Below, piece after piece: positions 32,436 to 46,001 of a DNA stretch of 64,000 bases. Made by a program: the position numbers and the translations under genes. The stretch lies in IMG/VR virus record IMGVR_UViG_3300035703_000061, positions 1-64,000 of that record; one strand, 5' to 3'. The stretch comes from a virus. Under the pieces are notes generated by a model that was not told the origin of the DNA, did no database searches, and saw only the letters and a program-made list of their open reading frames with translations. Every line of letters begins with the position of its first letter. Position 1 is the stretch's first letter.

Positions 32436-32729
32436 ATGCTTAAGAAAAGCATTTTGACCATGACTAAGAAGGAGAAGCAGGCAAAAATTGCTCGTGTTTT
32501 GCGCGAGTTTAAAGCTGGAAAGCTCAAAGGAAGCGACAAAAAGCCTATAACAAATCGTCGCCAAGCAATTGCCATCGCCCTCTCCGAAGCCGGTATGTCA
32601 ATGAAAGGCAAAAGCGATGCTTACATTGATGCCTACATTGATACCATGATGTGCATGGAAGTAGAGGAGCCCGAGGAAGAGAATGGTATGGAAGAGGAAA
32701 TGGATGGGAGCTGCGGAAAAAAGCGCTGA
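32436..32729 (+). CDS. DUF6496-like small protein; zero-frame product of a frameshift pair
   Basis: 97 residues from ATG 32436 (a second ATG at 32460 would start 'MTKKEKQAKIARVLREF'). The core 'RRQAIAIALSEAGMSMKG' is a known small phage/bacterial motif of unknown function. The acidic tail ends 'MDGSCGKKR' at TGA 32727. The last codons contain the slippery heptamer A_AAA_AAG (32717-32723) in the correct phase, so some ribosomes should shift to -1 and continue to 33076. Confidence 0.7.
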   Translation: MLKKSILTMTKKEKQAKIARVLREFKAGKLKGSDKKPITNRRQAIAIALSEAGMSMKGKSDAYIDAYIDTMMCMEVEEPEEENGMEEEMDGSCGKKR

Positions 32730-33076
32730 GGGGAGACGCTGAAAGCTTCTCCCCTCCTGCTGCTGTAAGGAGTGCCGCTCGTCGTGGTTTAGAACTACGC
32801 AAGAAGCACGGCAAAGGCGGCTTGACGACGCAGGAGGCGGGGAAGCAGGGCATTGGTAGCGGAGTGGCTAGGGCTACAAGCTTGGCAAATGGAGAGAAAG
32901 TGAGCTACGCCACCATCAAGAGAATGGCAGCGTTTTTTTCTCGCCATCGAAAGAATAAAAGTGGTGGAGAAGATGATGCAGGGCGAATCGCATGGCTGCT
33001 CTGGGGATCAGACGCAGGAGAGTCTTGGGCTCGACGCATCATTAAAATGGTGGAAAGTCGAAATAAAGACCAATGA
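32436..33076 (+). CDS. Predicted -1 frameshift fusion, 213 aa
   Basis: Reads 96 codons in frame zero to AAG 32721-32723, slips back one base, and continues 'ALRGDAESFSPPAAVRSAAR' to the stop at 33076. The second part (117 residues) is a conserved phage domain: 'LRKKHGKGGLTTQEAG', 'VSYATIKRMAAFFSRH' and 'DAGRIAWLLWGSDAGESWAR'. The in-frame open stretch before 32723 in the -1 frame looks non-coding, and no ATG sits at the domain boundary, so frameshifting is the natural way to make it. The location next to portal and protease genes suggests a structural or assembly role; the biochemical function is unknown. Confidence 0.7.
32717..32756 (+). promoter_or_regulatory. Programmed -1 ribosomal frameshift signal
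   Basis: Slippery A_AAA_AAG (32717-32723), a four-base spacer CGCT, then a perfect 9-bp stem GAGGGGAGA (32728-32736) / TCTCCCCTC (32748-32756) with an 11-base loop. The stop codon TGA of frame zero (32727-32729) lies at the foot of the stem. Purine-rich GAGG-type sequence upstream (32680-32710) could act like a stimulatory Shine-Dalgarno. The heptamer is the same as in E. coli dnaX. Confidence 0.8.
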
Positions 33077-33387
33077 GCGAATACGTGCGCGTTATCGAAC
33101 AAGAAGACGAAGGCATTGGTCTAATGCAGGCTTTGTCCATTCTTTCCGCCAACGAACATCGCAACACTTCACGCTGGGAGCTTGTTGAAAAGCAATGCTT
33201 CAAGAATGGCCGTCTCGACGAAACTCACATCTATGTGATGAGTGTTTACGACAAGCCTGATCCTCATTTTGATCCAACAAAATTCCTCACTTTTGAAATT
33301 GAGGCAATGGCGAAGTCATATATTATGGAAGGCATTGAGGATCAACTACGCGACCTTCGTGGCGATGATGATGACGAAGAGGATTAA
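33073..33387 (+). CDS. Hypothetical acidic protein, 104 aa
   Basis: Coupled to the fusion gene (ATG overlaps its TGA). Soluble alpha/beta protein with a strongly acidic C-terminus ('LRGDDDDEED'). Its stop overlaps the 3' end of the XRE gene by four bases. No family recognised. Confidence 0.6.
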   Translation: MSEYVRVIEQEDEGIGLMQALSILSANEHRNTSRWELVEKQCFKNGRLDETHIYVMSVYDKPDPHFDPTKFLTFEIEAMAKSYIMEGIEDQLRDLRGDDDDEED

Positions 33388-33668
33388 TCGCGCTTCGCAT
33401 TAAGAATGAACGATGGGTAGCCCATCAGCCACAGCACGCTAATTCCATAGAGTCCACTGAGAGTGCGAATTTGCACGCAGTCAGGAGCGAGTTCTGCACG
33501 TTCCATTCGAGAATAAGAACTCTGACTTGTATGCAAAGCTTCCGCTACATTCTTCTGTGAAAGCCCGCTGTTAAGGCGGGCTTCTTTAATGCGAGAAGCA
33601 ATGAGAAGACGAGCCTGCTGATGAGGCATTTTAAGCACATCGGCATTGCTCTTCTTAAGGAACATCAT
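33384..33668 (-). CDS. XRE-family transcriptional regulator
   Basis: 94 residues. A helix-turn-helix of the Cro/CI type ('RIKEARLNSGLSQKNVAEAL' then 'TSQSSYSRMERAEL') is followed by 'LSGLYGISVLWLMGY', the usual helix 5 region of XRE proteins. It is transcribed away from the protease/capsid operon. The 62-base divergent gap holds a 17-bp palindrome over a TATAAT box, so it most likely represses or tunes the head operon and perhaps itself. A lone repressor inside the late genes is unusual, and no integrase accompanies it here. Confidence 0.8.
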   Translation of the reverse strand: MMFLKKSNADVLKMPHQQARLLIASRIKEARLNSGLSQKNVAEALHTSQSSYSRMERAELAPDCVQIRTLSGLYGISVLWLMGYPSFILNAKRD

Positions 33669-33730: not shown

Positions 33731-34924
33731 ATGAGCACCGCATCTTGTCGCTACGATTTCTCGCCCATTGAGAAATATGAGGTGACGCCCGAAGGTTACC
33801 TTCGGGCTTGGGCCTCGATTGCTCGCACTGGCATTCAGCTCTACACAGATGCTGATGGCTCAGTGCGTCGTGAATACAGGCCTGAAGAAGAAGTGGCCTC
33901 TCCCGCGAGCCTAGCCTCTTTTGCTGGCAAGGCCGTAACCGCCGAACATCCGCCCGTTCTTCTAGATGCTGACAATACTAAAGACTACCAAGTAGGATTT
34001 AGCGGCACTGAAGTGGTGTATGACAATGGTTTTGTCAAGGCTGTGATGACAATCACGGACCAAGATGCCATTGATCGTATTATGCGCGGCGATGCTCGTG
34101 AAGTTAGCGCTGGCTACAGGGTTAATTATGATCCAACGCCAGGCGTTACCGATAGCGGTGAGCATTACGACGGCATCCAAAAGGAAATCGTTGGAAATCA
34201 CATCGCCGTTGTTCGACGGGGCCGTGCTGGCCCACAGGTGAAGCTCCATCTTGATCGTCAAGATGCCGCCGATCCATCTTTAATTCAAAACACCGAGGAA
34301 CGTCTTATGACTGCAAAAGTCGTATTCGACGGCGCCGAGTTTGAGGTGAGCGAGAGCGTTGCTCTTGCGATCACCAAAGAACGGGAAGATGGCCGTATGT
34401 CCTATGAGGACATGAAGAAGAAGTACGATGGTATGGTGGCCGAAGCTTCCAAAATGAAGGAAGAAATGGACGCCATGGAAAAGGAAATGAAGGGCAAGTG
34501 CGATTCCGCTGAGGGTCGTGCTGATGCTCTGGCAGAACAAGTTGAAGAACTGACTGCTGAACTGGCTGCCGCCAAGGAGATCAACCTTGATTCCATGGTG
34601 GAAGAGCGTGTGGCTCTCATCGAGAAGGCTAAGCCTGTTCTTGATGCTGCTTATGCTTTCGCTGGCAAAACTGCCCGTGAAGTGATGGTTGATTCCATCA
34701 AAGCAGTGCGTGGCGATGAGCTTGATCTTTCTGAGAAGAGCGACGACTACGTACAGGCAATGTTTGACACCCTTTCTGAGGGTCGCAAAGATTCTGCCAC
34801 CACTGACGAGCTGCGCAAAGCCGTAGCTTCCATTGCTTCTCCGAAGTCTGCACCTTCGTCCTATATGGACATGCTGCAGAATGCTTGGAAGAAGCCCCTT
34901 TCCATCTCCAAGGAGGCTAAGTAA
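33731..34924 (+). CDS. Prohead protease/scaffold fusion (DUF2213 type)
   Basis: 397 residues. The N-terminal ~190 residues form the protease part, with 'VTAEHPP', 'DAREVSAGYRVNYD' and 'GNHIAVVRRGRAG' (candidate catalytic His in the first, Ser in the second). The C-terminal part (about 220-300) is a long coiled coil rich in Glu, Lys and Met, as expected of an internal scaffold, followed by a helical tail. The protease cleaves the scaffold during head maturation. The operator-like palindrome and XRE gene lie directly upstream; the decoration gene follows after a strong AAGGAGG ribosome site. Confidence 0.85.
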   Translation: MSTASCRYDFSPIEKYEVTPEGYLRAWASIARTGIQLYTDADGSVRREYRPEEEVASPASLASFAGKAVTAEHPPVLLDADNTKDYQVGFSGTEVVYDNGFVKAVMTITDQDAIDRIMRGDAREVSAGYRVNYDPTPGVTDSGEHYDGIQKEIVGNHIAVVRRGRAGPQVKLHLDRQDAADPSLIQNTEERLMTAKVVFDGAEFEVSESVALAITKEREDGRMSYEDMKKKYDGMVAEASKMKEEMDAMEKEMKGKCDSAEGRADALAEQVEELTAELAAAKEINLDSMVEERVALIEKAKPVLDAAYAFAGKTAREVMVDSIKAVRGDELDLSEKSDDYVQAMFDTLSEGRKDSATTDELRKAVASIASPKSAPSSYMDMLQNAWKKPLSISKEAK

Positions 34925-35503: not shown

Positions 35504-36412
35504 ATGTCTGAATTCCGTATGGATGATGCGGGCCTGTTCCTTGAGCGTCAGCTTGAGTACATTCGCCCCCAAGTCTTTGAAGTGCAGTATGCGGATATTA
35601 AATATCCCACTGTGCTGCCCGTTACTGCTGAAGCTGGTCCTGGCGCCCAGACCTTCACCTATCGCATCATGGACTCCACTGGTGAGTTCAAGCTGATTGC
35701 GGACGCTGCTGATGATCTGCCCCGTGCCGACATCAGCCAAGTGGAGAAGAGCATCAACATCCGTTCATTCGGTGGCAGCTTTGGCTACACCGTGCAAGAA
35801 CTGCGTGCTGCTCAAATGGCCAACATCGCTCTGGAGCAGCGTCGTGCTGCTGCCGTGCGTCGTGCCTATGAAGAGAAAGTGGAGAGCCTGGCTTTCTTCG
35901 GCGAAAGCTCTGTGGGTCTCGCTGGTTTCTTCAACAACTCCACTGTGGACGTTGTTGCTGCTGACAAGTGGTTCACCACTGCCGGCACCACTGCCCAGGA
36001 AATGCTGGAGCTGCTGAACTATGGCGTGACTGCCATCATCAACGGCTCGAAGATGAAGGAGCAGCCCGACACCATTCTGCTGTCCTACGCGGATTACAAC
36101 AAGATCAGCACCACTCGTAACTCCGATTCTTCGGACGTGACCGTGCTTGAGTACTTCCTGCGTACCAACCCCTACATCCGCAACGTTGAGCCCATCAACC
36201 AGTTGGAAGCTGACAACAGCCCGCTGAACACTGACCGTATGGTTGTGTACAAGCGTGATCCTGAGAAGGTGCAACTGCACATTCCTCAGCCTCTTGAGCT
36301 GTTCCCGCCCCAACAGCGTGGCCTGGAATTCATCGTTCCTGCTCACGCCCGCGTGGGTGGCGTTGCTCTTTACTATCCCAAGAGCATGATCTACGTGCAG
36401 GCATCTGCCTGA
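35504..36412 (+). CDS. Major capsid protein (DUF2184 type)
   Basis: 302 residues. 'YADIKYPTVLPV', 'FTYRIMDSTGEFKLIAD', 'FGGSFGYTVQELRAAQMANI' and 'RAAAVRRAYEEKVESLAFFG' are typical of DUF2184 HK97-fold major capsid proteins; the C-terminus carries 'LQ-LEL-PPQQRGLEF' and 'ARVGGVALYYPKSM'. Strong AGGAGG ribosome site nine bases before ATG. Codon use is visibly biased towards GC-ending codons compared with its neighbours, as expected of the most highly expressed gene. Confidence 0.92.
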   Translation: MSEFRMDDAGLFLERQLEYIRPQVFEVQYADIKYPTVLPVTAEAGPGAQTFTYRIMDSTGEFKLIADAADDLPRADISQVEKSINIRSFGGSFGYTVQELRAAQMANIALEQRRAAAVRRAYEEKVESLAFFGESSVGLAGFFNNSTVDVVAADKWFTTAGTTAQEMLELLNYGVTAIINGSKMKEQPDTILLSYADYNKISTTRNSDSSDVTVLEYFLRTNPYIRNVEPINQLEADNSPLNTDRMVVYKRDPEKVQLHIPQPLELFPPQQRGLEFIVPAHARVGGVALYYPKSMIYVQASA

Positions 36413-39083: not shown

Positions 39084-39343
39084 AAATCGACTATTTATGG
39101 AGCGCTGACAATACAGTGCATGCCATTAATTGCTTAATTGATGGCGCTGCTTTAGAAGTGGGCATCCTTTGTCTTGTTTCTTGCAGGGAAACGACCATTA
39201 GAATAAGCAACGAAAATCATTCAATGCTGATTGAAGTGCCACCAGAATTCCGCTCTTCTCATGAGCGAGTGAAGGTGTACAACGCATTGTTAAACATTCT
39301 CGATCATGAGCAAATACAGCTTCCTAGTTCAAACCAAGACTGA
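39080..39343 (+). CDS. Hypothetical protein, 87 aa
   Basis: Overlaps the preceding gene by four bases and the tail chaperone gene by 38 bases. Beta-rich small protein ('ETTIRISNENHSMLIEVPPE'). No family recognised. Confidence 0.5.
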   Translation: MKIDYLWSADNTVHAINCLIDGAALEVGILCLVSCRETTIRISNENHSMLIEVPPEFRSSHERVKVYNALLNILDHEQIQLPSSNQD

Positions 39344-39839
39344 AGGCTATTTCGAGCTGCTGCCCGAAATCCGTCTGAAGAAATATGGCAGTTGGCTTGT
39401 TGCTGAATCCATTGAACAGGAGGAGATCAGCAAACTGCAAAGCCAAGCTACCATTCGTGCCGTTCAGCTTGCAAAGCGCATTGCTGCCTCGCGTGAGATT
39501 CCTCTAGATGAGGCCTTTGCGCTGTTGCAGGGCGGTGGCTCTATTTCAGAGGCCGAGCTGCTTTCTGAGTTCACAGAGGAGACGCTGAGCATGATCACCA
39601 GTGGATCGTCAGTGGAAGCCACTAATGCTCGCATGGTCACTGCTTTCATTCGTTCTCGTGGACAGGGCCTTATTGATGGCGAGTGGCAGGATCTTGGCGA
39701 CTGGGAGATTGAAGACACCAAAAATCTTCCTCGTAAAGCCATTGCAAAAGTGGTTGAATTTATTGCTGAAGAGCAAAACGCTGAGACGCAGGAGGCTGTA
39801 GAAGCAAAAAAAGCAGTGAAGAGGAATTCTCCTCAGTAG
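39306..39839 (+). CDS. Tail assembly chaperone, short form (G-like)
   Basis: 177 residues in the zero frame. Helical, acidic protein directly before the tape measure gene, with a C-terminal run of Lys, Glu and Ala ('AETQEAVEAKKAVKRNSPQ'). Position and frameshift match lambda gpG-type chaperones that coat the tape measure protein. A slippery A_AAA_AAA lies at 39806-39812 and gives the longer product. Confidence 0.8.
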   Translation: MSKYSFLVQTKTEGYFELLPEIRLKKYGSWLVAESIEQEEISKLQSQATIRAVQLAKRIAASREIPLDEAFALLQGGGSISEAELLSEFTEETLSMITSGSSVEATNARMVTAFIRSRGQGLIDGEWQDLGDWEIEDTKNLPRKAIAKVVEFIAEEQNAETQEAVEAKKAVKRNSPQ

Positions 39840-40313: not shown

Positions 40314-43300
40314 ATGGCAGCTCAAGACGCCGAACTAAAGCTGAAGGTAAGTCTTGATCTGGCGTTTCTTAGGCAGCAATTAAGCACGATTGGCACGCAG
40401 CTCGCTGGACAAGGCATTGATATCAGCGCCGAAATTGACAAAGATGACGTAGTAAAACAATACAATTTACTTGCCAAAACTTTAGAAAGTAAGACTATTC
40501 GGCTAAAAGTTGAAAGTACCACGCTTGACTCTCTTGTTATTAAGGCCGCAAACCTTAAGAAAAACCTTGAAGAATTTGGCAAGCAAGATATTTCCTTAGA
40601 TATTAAAATTGCCAGCAATATTGCCGATCTGCGTAAAAGCATCAAGGATAAACTTCCTTCTGTTGCTATTGATACTCATCTTAATGAACCCGTAAATGTT
40701 TACGACTTTATTCGCGATGTAGCGAAAAAAGTCGACGATCAAGTGAAGAAAAGCTATGTAGCAGGCGGAATTCCTATTGTTACAAAGCTTGCATTGCCCG
40801 GACTCGCGGATCCGCTGAAAGCTCTGCAGAAAAATTTAAATCAAAGAGATCCGCTGCGAGCAAAAGTTGGCACAACCCCATCAATTCAAAAGTCAGATGT
40901 GACAGCATTCAAGACTGCTGTCAGTGAAAAATTCAAGGACATCACTGTAAAAGTTAAAGCTGAGCTTGAAACTGCCACCGCTGCTGCGCAAGGCGCTACT
41001 ACTGGGCCTTCTCGCACTTTCTTGCAAGAGCTAAAAGACTTAGACAAGAGCGTCCTTCAGAGCATTTACAAAGCCGCTGGCGAAGATGCGTTACTGGCAT
41101 TTGATGAAGGAATTATTAACAACAAAACAAAAATGGCGCAAGCCTTAAATAAGGCTGCGGAAGATGCAAGCGCTGGCTTTATTGCCGCCCTTGAAAACAA
41201 GAAGAGCGCGTTATTCAAGGCAGCAGGCGAATATGGAGGCGCATTGCTTAGCGGCCTCAGAAAAACTCTCAAGATTCAATCCCCTTCAAGGGAGATGTTT
41301 GATATTGGCGATGATGCGGGTAAAGGTTTTGAGCTTGGCTTATTAAAGGCCTTAGAGCTGGCAGAAAAGTCTGCTACTAATCAAATGCGACGGATGTTAG
41401 ACCGTCTCGCTCGCATGGCGCTCATGATGGGAGGCATGAGTGCTGCAGCAATTAACAGGCAAGTTGCACAGTCAAGAGCATTGCCTAGCGTTAATTTCCC
41501 CGCGACTGTACCGCCTCGTCAAAGCATCCCCATTGGACCTTCTGGAACAGGCAGGGCGTTGCCTCCTGGCGCTATTCCTCAAGCTCTGCCTGGCACTGCT
41601 TTTGGCGCTCAAAAATATCTTCCTACCAATCTTGGCATTGAATTACAGCAAATTCTGCAAAAAGCTGCATATGCTTTTGTTGATGCAGTTCGACGAGAAG
41701 TGAGAACTGTAAAAATTGGCATTGGCGCTTCAATGCAAGCAGCTCTTCCTGCTGCTCGCATTGCTGGCTTGCTTCCTTCTGCTGTTGGCCGCGCTCCTAG
41801 TACTTATTCCACAGGAGCAATTGGCGGTGAATCACGCGAGCAAATGATGGCGCGGCGTACAGCAGAAGCTTATGCACGTTCTGCGTTGCGTGGGATGGAT
41901 GTAATGGGAGGAGGGGCTGGTCGCCCTCCGTCTCCTTATAGCTATGCGTATAGGAGTGCAAGGCCAACCAGCGCAATTATTCCCTATGCACAGCCCGGTG
42001 CAATTGTGCCGTCACCCGTTGCTGGCGAGGGAGGAGCAGTGCCTCCTGTGGGCGGCGGTGGAGGCATGCGAGGGATGGGAGGAATGGGCGGCTTTGGTCG
42101 TGCATTGGGAGGCGTTAATCTTCCTGGCGCAGGAGCCATTCGTGAACTTGGTCAAGAATTTGCTTTTGCTACGCAGCAAGTATTGCTCTTTGGTCAAGCA
42201 TATAAAATGCTTGCCTTTATTCAGAATTTTCCGACACAAGTTGGAGCGGCGGTAAGTCAGCTTCAAAACTTCCGCAATACTCTTGGTGCCATTTCTCCAA
42301 CCGCAGAAGAAGCGGCATCTTCTAATCGTTTAATTCTTGATTTGGTTGAGAAATATAATGTGCCGCTGCAGTCGGCACGAGATGGCTTTACGAAGCTTTA
42401 TGCTTCTATGGCTCCTGCTGGCTTTAGCGGAGATGAAATCAGGAATTTATTCACTGGCATTACGCAAGCTGCTGCCACATTTGGCATGAGCGCAGACAAA
42501 GTGGATCGCGTAAATTATGCCTTTGCTCAAATGGCAAGCAAAGGACAAGTGATGAGCGAAGAGCTGAAAGGACAGTTAGGCGATGTACTACCTGGCGCTA
42601 TGGCAATTTTTGCAAAGGCCGCTGGATTTGAAGGGTCAAAAGCTATTCAAGACTTTTCTGCGGAGTTAGAAGCTGGCAGATACAAAGGCGAGGCGATGGT
42701 CGCATTGCTTAAAAATGTTGGCATTGTAATGAGGCAGGAATTCGGCTCTGGAGCCGAAGGCGCAGCTTTGACTTTTCAAGGCATTATTAATCGCATGCAA
42801 AATTCAATGATCCTCTTATATGAGAGCTTTGAGCCTGTTGCCGTGGGATTTTTGAATACTGTCGTTGTGCCATTAACTGATGGAATTAGGCAAATTTCCG
42901 ATGGATTTAATGCTTTCTTTACTGGAGCAGCAACAAAAACGAGCGGCGGCTTTGGAATAGCCCAAGAACTTGAACGTCTTAAGCCGACATTTGAAGGCCT
43001 TGGCCAAAACGTAAAAGCTTTGATTGAGCAATTTGGTCAATTTGCTCGGGCCGGGCTAGAAGTGGGCAAGGTGTTATTGCAAATTGCGGGCAATCCATTC
43101 GTTGGTTACCTCGCGCGTGTATATGCTGCTGTGCTCCCGTTGACGCTGGCAATTCAGGTTCTAAATTTAAGAGCCCTTGTTCCCTTGATTGCTAGTTTTG
43201 TGCGCGCCATTCCAGTGTTTGTTACTTATACAGCGGCAACTGCTCAAGGTGTTACCGCCAACAAGGCATTGCAGTTAGCGATGGTAACTACAGGGAAAAC

Positions 43301-46001
43301 TGCTGGCGTTACGGCAACTCAAATTAGAACAGTTGGAACTGCAATGAAGGCAGCTTTTGCCGGCACCGTTATCGGCTCTGTTTTGCTTGGCATTGGCATG
43401 TTGATAGAGAAAATTATTTCTTTAAATGCGTCAATGGCCGACACGAAAGCAAAGGCCATGGGAGCCGCGCAAGCTATTCGCTCGATGTCGCAAACAGAAG
43501 CCCAGCAGGCCACTAGACAATACGAGGCGGGAGCGCAAAGTTTAAAAGGATTAAATGAAGAGATAGAGCAAGGGAAGCTTAAGGGAAAGGCTTGGATTGA
43601 AGTGACATCTCAGCAAGCGAAGGCATTGCAAGATGCTGGAGTGATTGTTTCAAATGTCAGAGGCTCTTTACAGGTGCAGCCAACGCGAGTGACGGGAGCA
43701 TTTCAGAAATTACAAGGACTAGCAGCGGAGGGAAAATATAGACAAGAGCTACTTTCCTATGAAGAAAAACAAGCGCAGCAGACAGTATCGCTTCCTCCTA
43801 TTCCCGCCGGAGGAGGTGAAGAGAAAGGGAATGAAAAAGCGCTAGCAAAAGCCGCAGAAGAAGCCCGTAGACTTGCTGATGATAAGCGTAAGTACGAAGC
43901 TGATTTAATGAATATTAGCTTTGATCAAGCAATTAACTTGAGCGATATGGAATTTGAGCATTGGAAAAACTTGCAGCAGGCGAAATACGATTTTCTTGAG
44001 GCAGGACAAAACGAATGGATGAGCAGAGAATTGAAATTCCAACGCGATCTTCAGGCTATTGAAATTCGCAGAATTGAGACAATTCGCAAAGCGCAAGTTG
44101 ATACCGCTAAAGCTGAAATGAAGGCAGCTACGAGCGCTTATGTGGCGGAAGATTCCGGCGCTGGCGGGGGTGCTGCCATGTTCGGCGCTACCGGGAGAGT
44201 GTTCAACGCTCCTGGCTGGGTTCATGGTCATTTTCAAAACATGAACCGAGAGGCATTAGTTCAAGACACTGTTGAAGTGGTAATGAAGCTTCTGCAGCAA
44301 GGTGTTAAGCCTGAGTTGGGTAGCGGGCAAAAATTCACTGCTGGAATGCAGCAAGCTCAAGTGGAGCAGTTAGTGCGTCGTGGCATTGCTTCGCATAAAT
44401 CGTACGCGAGTGGAGTTGGGGCTATTGATGTGTTTGTTCCGCAAGGGACGCGAGTGCCAGTTGGCTTGTCAGGAGTGAGCAATCTCGGTGGCGCCGCTGG
44501 TGTTTCCGGGAATCTGCCTCGTGGCACGCAATTAATGCACCTCGATCCCAGCTCGCGCTCTGGAGCGGCTGGTGCAGCGCCTGCTGGAGTGCCTGCTTCA
44601 AGAATAAGAGCAGAAGCGAAGAAGGATTATGCTTCGGCGCTTGCAAGTCAAGAAGCAATTAATGCGAAAGAAAAAGAAAATCTTGCCACTAAATATGCAA
44701 ATATTCAGGCGCAACAAGAGCTTAATGTTCTCATTCGAGAATACACTGCCTCCATTGTTCCAGTGGAACAGCAAAAGCTTGAAAATACTCTCTTACAAAA
44801 TCGCATTAGTTTAATCTCGTCCGGGGCGTTTGGAGATGCTCTTGAGACTGAACAGAAGATTAGCGAAGCCAGAGAAAAAGCTGCTCTTGGCGTGCAAATG
44901 GCCAATGCTCAAATTGAGCAAAATAACAAACTAGTAAAAGATGGAATTATCAAGCAAGAAGAAGCAGATAAGCTAAATGCTTCTCAAGTGGAAAAAATTA
45001 AGCAGCTCACTCAGGGGCTTGAAGCTTACATCCCACTGCTAAGAGAAAGACTGAAGCTTGAGCAATCAAGTGCAGAAGCTACTTTGCGTGGTGAAATCAC
45101 TCGCGCCACTCCTCTGGGAGGCATGGGACTTTCTGCTGGTTTTATTGGTCCTGCTAGCGATAGGTTTGAGGAGGCGATTGGTCGTGGGGCCACACAAGAT
45201 GAGGCGTCGCGTTTCGCCGAATTACAGAATCAACTCACTCTTCTTGAGAGCAGAAATGAGGCTATCAAGCAGTCCATCTATGGCATTGGCAATGCTTTTG
45301 GCGAAGCTTTAACTACTGGCGTAGCAAGCCTCGTTTCCGGCACTGCCACTGCTAAAGAAGTATTTGCAAGCTTCTTGCAAAGCGTGGGTCAAGCTTTGTC
45401 TCAAGCGGCTTCGCAGATGATTGCCACTTACATTGCCATTGGTATTGCAAAAATGTTTGCGGGCCTTGGCGGAGGCGGTGGAAATCCAGCAGGTAGCGGA
45501 GGAGGGATCTCTGACATTCTCCCTGGGGCAAGTAAATACATGGAAGGAGGAGGCGCTGCACTTGGCGCTAGCGCTGGTACATTCGGTGCCGTAACAACAG
45601 GCTACGCTAATGGCGGCATTGTGCCCGGCGGCTTCCGGGCGTTTGCCAACGGTGGCGTCGTCAGTGGTCCTACGCTTGGCCTTGTAGGCGAAGGCAAGTA
45701 CAACGAAGCCATTGTCCCCCTCCCAGATGGTCGTTCCATTCCCGTGCAGCTTGGTGGACGTTCTGCCCGTGACCTCATGGGCAATGGCGCCCCAGGTATG
45801 CCTCAAGCGCCTTCTCTGAGCATGAAGTTTGAAACGACTAAGATTAATGGCGTAGAATACGTTAGCAGAGAACAATTAGAGCAGGCAATGGCAGAAACTC
45901 GTCGCGCTTCCATTGCAGGCGGTGCTCAACGAGGCATGTCAATGACGCTCGATAAGATTAAGCAAAGCCCCTCCACTCGCTCTAGTATTGGTATCCGCTA
46001 A
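40314..46001 (+). CDS. Tape measure protein
   Basis: 1895 residues, the longest gene. It sets tail length and is ejected ahead of the DNA. Residues 1-400 are helical; a Gly/Pro-rich linker follows (about 400-600). The TP901-type core is at about 610-790 ('FRNTLGAISPTAEEAASSNR', 'YAFAQMASKGQVMSEELKGQ'). Hydrophobic segments at about 930-1040 probably cross a membrane. An embedded domain at about 1280-1420 has H1304, H1306, H1361, D1372 ('AIDVFVPQGT') and H1409 ('LMHLDPS'), resembling metal-dependent peptidoglycan peptidases. The C-terminus ends in the usual 'GGVVSGPTLGLVGEGKYNEA' motif. At about 0.15 nm per residue, the tail would be near 280 nm (established ruler rule, my arithmetic). Confidence 0.9.
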   Translation: MAAQDAELKLKVSLDLAFLRQQLSTIGTQLAGQGIDISAEIDKDDVVKQYNLLAKTLESKTIRLKVESTTLDSLVIKAANLKKNLEEFGKQDISLDIKIASNIADLRKSIKDKLPSVAIDTHLNEPVNVYDFIRDVAKKVDDQVKKSYVAGGIPIVTKLALPGLADPLKALQKNLNQRDPLRAKVGTTPSIQKSDVTAFKTAVSEKFKDITVKVKAELETATAAAQGATTGPSRTFLQELKDLDKSVLQSIYKAAGEDALLAFDEGIINNKTKMAQALNKAAEDASAGFIAALENKKSALFKAAGEYGGALLSGLRKTLKIQSPSREMFDIGDDAGKGFELGLLKALELAEKSATNQMRRMLDRLARMALMMGGMSAAAINRQVAQSRALPSVNFPATVPPRQSIPIGPSGTGRALPPGAIPQALPGTAFGAQKYLPTNLGIELQQILQKAAYAFVDAVRREVRTVKIGIGASMQAALPAARIAGLLPSAVGRAPSTYSTGAIGGESREQMMARRTAEAYARSALRGMDVMGGGAGRPPSPYSYAYRSARPTSAIIPYAQPGAIVPSPVAGEGGAVPPVGGGGGMRGMGGMGGFGRALGGVNLPGAGAIRELGQEFAFATQQVLLFGQAYKMLAFIQNFPTQVGAAVSQLQNFRNTLGAISPTAEEAASSNRLILDLVEKYNVPLQSARDGFTKLYASMAPAGFSGDEIRNLFTGITQAAATFGMSADKVDRVNYAFAQMASKGQVMSEELKGQLGDVLPGAMAIFAKAAGFEGSKAIQDFSAELEAGRYKGEAMVALLKNVGIVMRQEFGSGAEGAALTFQGIINRMQNSMILLYESFEPVAVGFLNTVVVPLTDGIRQISDGFNAFFTGAATKTSGGFGIAQELERLKPTFEGLGQNVKALIEQFGQFARAGLEVGKVLLQIAGNPFVGYLARVYAAVLPLTLAIQVLNLRALVPLIASFVRAIPVFVTYTAATAQGVTANKALQLAMVTTGKTAGVTATQIRTVGTAMKAAFAGTVIGSVLLGIGMLIEKIISLNASMADTKAKAMGAAQAIRSMSQTEAQQATRQYEAGAQSLKGLNEEIEQGKLKGKAWIEVTSQQAKALQDAGVIVSNVRGSLQVQPTRVTGAFQKLQGLAAEGKYRQELLSYEEKQAQQTVSLPPIPAGGGEEKGNEKALAKAAEEARRLADDKRKYEADLMNISFDQAINLSDMEFEHWKNLQQAKYDFLEAGQNEWMSRELKFQRDLQAIEIRRIETIRKAQVDTAKAEMKAATSAYVAEDSGAGGGAAMFGATGRVFNAPGWVHGHFQNMNREALVQDTVEVVMKLLQQGVKPELGSGQKFTAGMQQAQVEQLVRRGIASHKSYASGVGAIDVFVPQGTRVPVGLSGVSNLGGAAGVSGNLPRGTQLMHLDPSSRSGAAGAAPAGVPASRIRAEAKKDYASALASQEAINAKEKENLATKYANIQAQQELNVLIREYTASIVPVEQQKLENTLLQNRISLISSGAFGDALETEQKISEAREKAALGVQMANAQIEQNNKLVKDGIIKQEEADKLNASQVEKIKQLTQGLEAYIPLLRERLKLEQSSAEATLRGEITRATPLGGMGLSAGFIGPASDRFEEAIGRGATQDEASRFAELQNQLTLLESRNEAIKQSIYGIGNAFGEALTTGVASLVSGTATAKEVFASFLQSVGQALSQAASQMIATYIAIGIAKMFAGLGGGGGNPAGSGGGISDILPGASKYMEGGGAALGASAGTFGAVTTGYANGGIVPGGFRAFANGGVVSGPTLGLVGEGKYNEAIVPLPDGRSIPVQLGGRSARDLMGNGAPGMPQAPSLSMKFETTKINGVEYVSREQLEQAMAETRRASIAGGAQRGMSMTLDKIKQSPSTRSSIGIR

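Follow-up and report, generated by a model that had tools for sequence, protein, structure and literature searches.

Two proteins probably made from one start by −1 frameshifting in the head-gene region of a phage

The locus and its signal

The window analyzed here is a stretch of 64,000 nucleotides (positions 1 to 64,000) from the 74,485-base virus record IMGVR_UViG_3300035703_000061. Two small coding regions, here called D1 and D2, lie within it in a −1 relation to each other, joined by a slippery heptamer, a stop codon and a hairpin. The elements of this pair are the following:

32460..32729, plus strand: D1, a zero-frame open reading frame (ORF) with a DUF6496 domain and an acidic tail (Pfam PF20106, E 8e-6; start placed through relatives)
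32717..32723, plus strand: slippery heptamer A_AAA_AAG in the zero phase (from the sequence; X_XXA_AAG in phase in 105/105 loci)
32727..32729, plus strand: zero-frame stop TGA, one codon past the heptamer (from the sequence and relatives)
32728..32756, plus strand: 9-bp hairpin, a candidate frameshift stimulator (fold z −3.6; pair counts and covariation)
32717..33076, plus strand: D2, the −1-frame extension, a phrog_2859-like helical domain (phrog_2859, E 1.3e-16; substitution ratios; AlphaFold2 model of a natural fusion)

The zero-frame codons at the end of D1 are GGA AAA AAG CGC TGA, and the D2 frame closes at the TGA of 33074-33076, 117 codons after the shift. The hairpin is formed by the arms 32728-32736 and 32748-32756, which enclose an 11-base loop and are separated from the heptamer by a 4-base spacer (32724-32727). 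The original prediction, made from the letters of this stretch, had described the heptamer, spacer, 9-bp stem, 11-base loop, stop and 117-residue −1 frame, and all of these coordinates agree with the sequence. Its start for D1, ATG 32436, is an alternative within a frame that is open from 32430; D1 probably begins instead at ATG 32460 (MTKKEKQAKI), the start common to relatives. A search of Rfam gave no family match in the D1-D2 region, and a plasmid search gave no match for it.

Conservation of the slippery heptamer

One heptamer alone is unremarkable (about 10% of random synonymous recodings of this single sequence, with the amino acids fixed, hold one in phase), and relatives were therefore gathered from four IMG/VR scans and from named phages, the distinct loci being sorted by script. 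D1 and D2 were found in the −1 relation in 105 distinct loci, including that of the cultured isolate Synechococcus phage S-CBS4, where the pair is annotated as gp018 and gp019. All 105 two-frame loci carry an in-phase X_XXA_AAG (77 A_AAA_AAG, 20 G_GGA_AAG and 8 C_CCA_AAG), and the zero-frame stop follows immediately or one codon later in 104 of them. Among the 100 distinct loci tested against synonymous randomization the heptamer was present in every one, about 11 being expected.

The residues encoded at the heptamer differ (Lys-Lys, Gly-Lys or Pro-Lys) and the slippery form is constant, whereas Lys, Gly and Pro codons in the rest of D1 vary freely. On a tree of D2, built from 309 columns with the signal itself left out and with many weak branches, the heptamer changed type among A, G and C about 12 times without the slippery form ever being lost, and the fused versus shifted state requires about five changes. 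Two unrelated D1 tails, one Glu-rich and the other Lys/Arg-rich, both precede the conserved signal. An upstream Shine-Dalgarno-like (SD-like) stretch occurs in 55 of 70 Glu-rich loci and in 2 of 30 Lys/Arg-rich loci; this last count led to the rejection of an SD-like stimulator, as in dnaX, as a general feature. In three loci (L063, L226 and L271) the D1 frame extends a long way upstream without a stop and connects to a Cys-containing domain, with further sequence ahead of that domain in L271.

Conservation of the hairpin

The hairpin folds at −23 kcal/mol, and none of 200 shuffled sequences equaled it. Across 82 distinct 45-mers from the relatives, 93% of the cells of the nine-pair stem hold standard pairs, against 57-72% when the partners are slid. 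At the single core-stem pair that varies frequently, positions 17 and 33, one partner is the third base of a Gly codon and the other opens a Ser or Ala codon; the two can pair in 76 of 82 sequences, against a shuffle mean of 41, with none of 2000 shuffles as high. Independent contrasts on the tree for this pair run in the same direction, never the opposite one (median sign-test p 0.03). In L104, a compensatory change of a stem pair from G-C to A-U alters two residues. Conservation of heptamer and stem while the surrounding codons vary, which the original prediction had proposed as a check, is thus what the relatives display.

Natural fusions and selection on D2

In about 18 related loci D1 and D2 form one continuous frame that lacks the heptamer, which indicates that the D1-D2 fusion is a natural product. 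Continuous frames had been named beforehand as the finding that would speak for a sequencing indel; those that exist belong to separate lineages with junctions different from those of the two-frame loci, and 105 loci keep two frames, so the outcome favors frameshifting. The stem is mostly broken in the in-frame fusions, L024 being one that still folds. These natural versions offer a ready comparison for what the short, unfused product contributes.

D2 is under purifying selection, with a median ratio of nonsynonymous to synonymous substitution (dN/dS) of 0.064 among relatives, and the zero frame across D2 is closed by a median of four stops. The absence of a start codon at the edge of D2, noticed at first in this one sequence, holds widely: in 68 of 100 distinct loci the stretch between the −1-frame stop and roughly codon 12 of D2 is free of ATG, GTG and TTG, and ATG is missing there in every locus.

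Identity of the two domains

D1 matches Pfam PF20106 (DUF6496) with 26.6 bits, above the gathering cutoff of 24. It also matches weakly the C-terminal part of the protease profile phrog_530 (E 0.003), a match that was not relied on. D2 is a mobile all-helical domain, homologous to a phrog_2859-like domain carried by head proteases of the XkdF, S78 and DUF2213 types. Elsewhere in phages, XkdF-type and S78 head proteases and protease-capsid polyproteins carry it N-terminally, as does a probable DUF2213 protease (E 0.003, under the Pfam cutoff), and it lies at the C-terminus of a portal-like and a MuF-like protein (identified by eye). It is also present in predicted structures named prohead protease, portal or XkdF. 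On chromosomes of alphaproteobacteria, D2 is encoded by itself as a protein of about 105 aa (about 106 aa in Sphingomonas), and in Xanthomonas it bears a histone-like Lys/Ala-rich tail. The locus also points to D2 as a mobile domain still lacking a name, seen on prohead proteases as well as on portal and MuF proteins.

The natural fusion L010 was modeled with AlphaFold2 from an alignment of the fetched loci, four rows from phage records being left out. The model consists of two helical domains and a disordered linker (mean predicted local distance difference test score 82.5, predicted template modeling score 0.58). Sequence and fold searches of the PDB returned nothing significant, no solved structure resembling this model, and neither D1 nor D2 matched any chaperone family.

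Gene context

The D1-D2 pair is located between the portal gene and the head protease gene, with a glycosyltransferase cassette directly 5' of it. Downstream lie the following genes:

33073..33387, plus strand: next gene, 104 aa, its ATG overlapping the D2 stop as ATGA (from the sequence)
33731..34924, plus strand: head maturation protease, DUF2213 (PF09979, E 1.5e-44; phrog_530, E 2e-101)
35504..36412, plus strand: major head protein (phrog_264, E 1e-90)

Among 100 distinct loci, the D2 stop and the start of the next gene overlap as ATGA in 68 and as GTGA in 25. This overlap, at 33073-33076 in the window, suggests translational coupling of D2 to the 104-aa gene. A minus-strand gene for a repressor-like helix-turn-helix protein (33384-33668) lies within the head operon; at the matching position in S-CBS4 a transcriptional repressor is annotated.

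Proposed mechanism and possible role

Programmed −1 ribosomal frameshifting very probably yields two proteins from the single start of this locus. The majority of ribosomes would translate D1, with its DUF6496 domain, and terminate at TGA 32727; some would pause at the hairpin, where both transfer RNAs on X_XXA_AAG would slip back together by one base, and would then continue through D2 to give the D1-D2 fusion. The computation shows the signal and its phase, their conservation, the covariation and the natural in-frame fusions; that ribosomes slip in the cell, and how often, we infer. A frameshift-derived fusion is the best explanation because starts at the D2 edge are scarce, because G- and C-type heptamers occur and because D2 is under purifying selection, and this reading is strongly supported by the relatives as a set.

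A role in head assembly seems likely, given that in other phages D2 is part of prohead proteases and of portal or MuF proteins. Tentatively, D1 could be a small head-assembly accessory and D2 a helical module through which a limited set of D1 copies contacts the prohead (protease, portal or shell), the frameshift fixing the ratio of short to fused protein. Control of an assembly step by that ratio, suggested by the original prediction, is likewise something we infer. Since the D2 stop overlaps the start of the next gene, ribosomes that have shifted may contribute to the translation of that gene as well. A still bolder proposal, which we consider doubtful, is that one slippage event gates two outputs: it would set the D1 : D1-D2 ratio in the prohead, and the ATGA/GTGA overlap would let it meter how much of the next head-region gene is translated. 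The site would then be a stoichiometry switch for a small assembly module that has not been described in other phages.

Several observations weigh against this picture. One locus, L043, still has the heptamer, but the stop next to it is gone. The stem is absent in L187 and folds weakly in L017, L226 and L271 despite the heptamer, so the hairpin is not essential everywhere. Four loci (L115, L134, L138 and L167) are single-base variants, errors or real. The head-assembly role is read from gene position and from the occurrence of D2 in other phages. As to the single-base variants themselves, L115 compared with L121, and L134, L138 and L167, depart by one base within or close to the slippery run (A5 versus A6, an in-frame A7, a missing base) and in D1; they may reflect faulty assembly or true variation by which the frame is locked.

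Alternative explanations

A real frameshift might serve no head function at all, D1-D2 being a DNA-associated or host-directed accessory protein merely placed in the head operon. The standalone chromosomal form of D2, its histone-like tail in Xanthomonas and the glycosyltransferase cassette immediately upstream would all suit such a protein, whereas in phages D2 recurs as a fusion partner of prohead proteases, protease-capsid polyproteins, portal and MuF proteins, and we regard this alternative as rather unlikely.

It is quite improbable that D2 is a separate gene, translated from a start of its own inside the frame or by ribosomes that re-initiate once D1 has ended, with the heptamer incidental. 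GTG and TTG codons do occur within D2 in many loci, and an internal start was the choice of the S-CBS4 annotators for gp019. The recurrent candidates, however, fall within the conserved domain and are not common to all loci; starts at the D2 edge are as scarce as described above, and an internal start would leave both the complete retention of the heptamer and the in-frame fusions unexplained. If frameshifting is the correct reading, S-CBS4 gp018 and gp019 are flagged as genes split and mis-started by annotation.

Two further explanations place the event at the run of A residues, and neither homopolymer error nor transcriptional slippage is compatible with the G- and C-type heptamers. Poly-A runs can produce transcriptional slippage and hence mixed messenger RNAs, but the described bacterial cases involve runs of about eight or nine (PMC5009743, PMC3711429). 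The run here is six, and only three in 28 of the 105 loci, where the X_XXA_AAG phase is nevertheless kept; the conserved hairpin and adjacent stop also suit ribosomal slippage, and the transcriptional version appears extremely improbable. An indel from sequencing or assembly, or decay to a pseudogene, can be considered refuted for practical purposes by the comparative data and has a negligible chance: A-runs are error-prone and a few one-base differences exist, but 105 distinct loci, drawn from many samples, and a cultured isolate share the arrangement, the GGGAAAG or CCCAAAG of 28 of these loci is no long homopolymer, and selection on D2 argues against decay.

Comparison with known frameshift systems

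The signal belongs to the class of Escherichia coli dnaX and lambda G/GT; the mechanism is known and the gene family is new. With dnaX the locus shares A_AAA_AAG, a short spacer and a strong hairpin, as well as an SD-like stretch upstream in most Glu-rich loci. It differs in that most loci with a Lys/Arg tail lack the SD-like element, in that the shifted product is the short one in dnaX and the long one at D1-D2, and in the protein itself, which is unrelated. Like lambda G/GT and other tail assembly chaperones, the pair uses a −1 slip near the end of a short phage ORF to add a C-terminal domain. The lambda G/GT heptamer is G_GGA_AAG. This type, reported for tail-chaperone genes (PMC7911831), is also present among the D1-D2 loci.

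That a frameshifted pair at the head-gene border was not previously known, as first supposed, stands for the D1-D2 pair itself: literature searches returned no report of it, most subscription papers being outside their reach. For phage head genes generally the supposition fails, as frameshift-appended domains have been described on head proteins of T3 (gene 10), Lactobacillus phage A2 and the Listeria phages A118 and PSA, and domain mobility was suggested as the reason why some appended domains are in frame and others are not (PMC5009743). In those systems, as at D1-D2, a mobile domain is placed on a fraction of a head-region protein, and relatives may have an in-frame version. In contrast, the extended protein of the T3/T7/A2 type is the major capsid protein, whereas the protein extended here, D1, is small and carries DUF6496, the major head protein having its own gene at 35504-36412; the appended domain there is often Ig-like, whereas the D2 model is all-helical.

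The D1-D2 loci thus add a frameshift family of deep conservation that lies apart from the tail chaperone, the usual place for phage frameshifts, and the family is directly testable, as the phage group has a cultured member. The pair lies in the head region, about 7 kb 5' of a tape-measure-like ORF (40314-46001) rather than directly before it. Apart from the pair the phage has, as anticipated, its own tail-chaperone-type −1 site, A_AAA_AAA at 39806-39812, near the end of the ORF 39306-39839, and the −1 frame past this site is open to 40279, just 5' of the tape-measure-like ORF.
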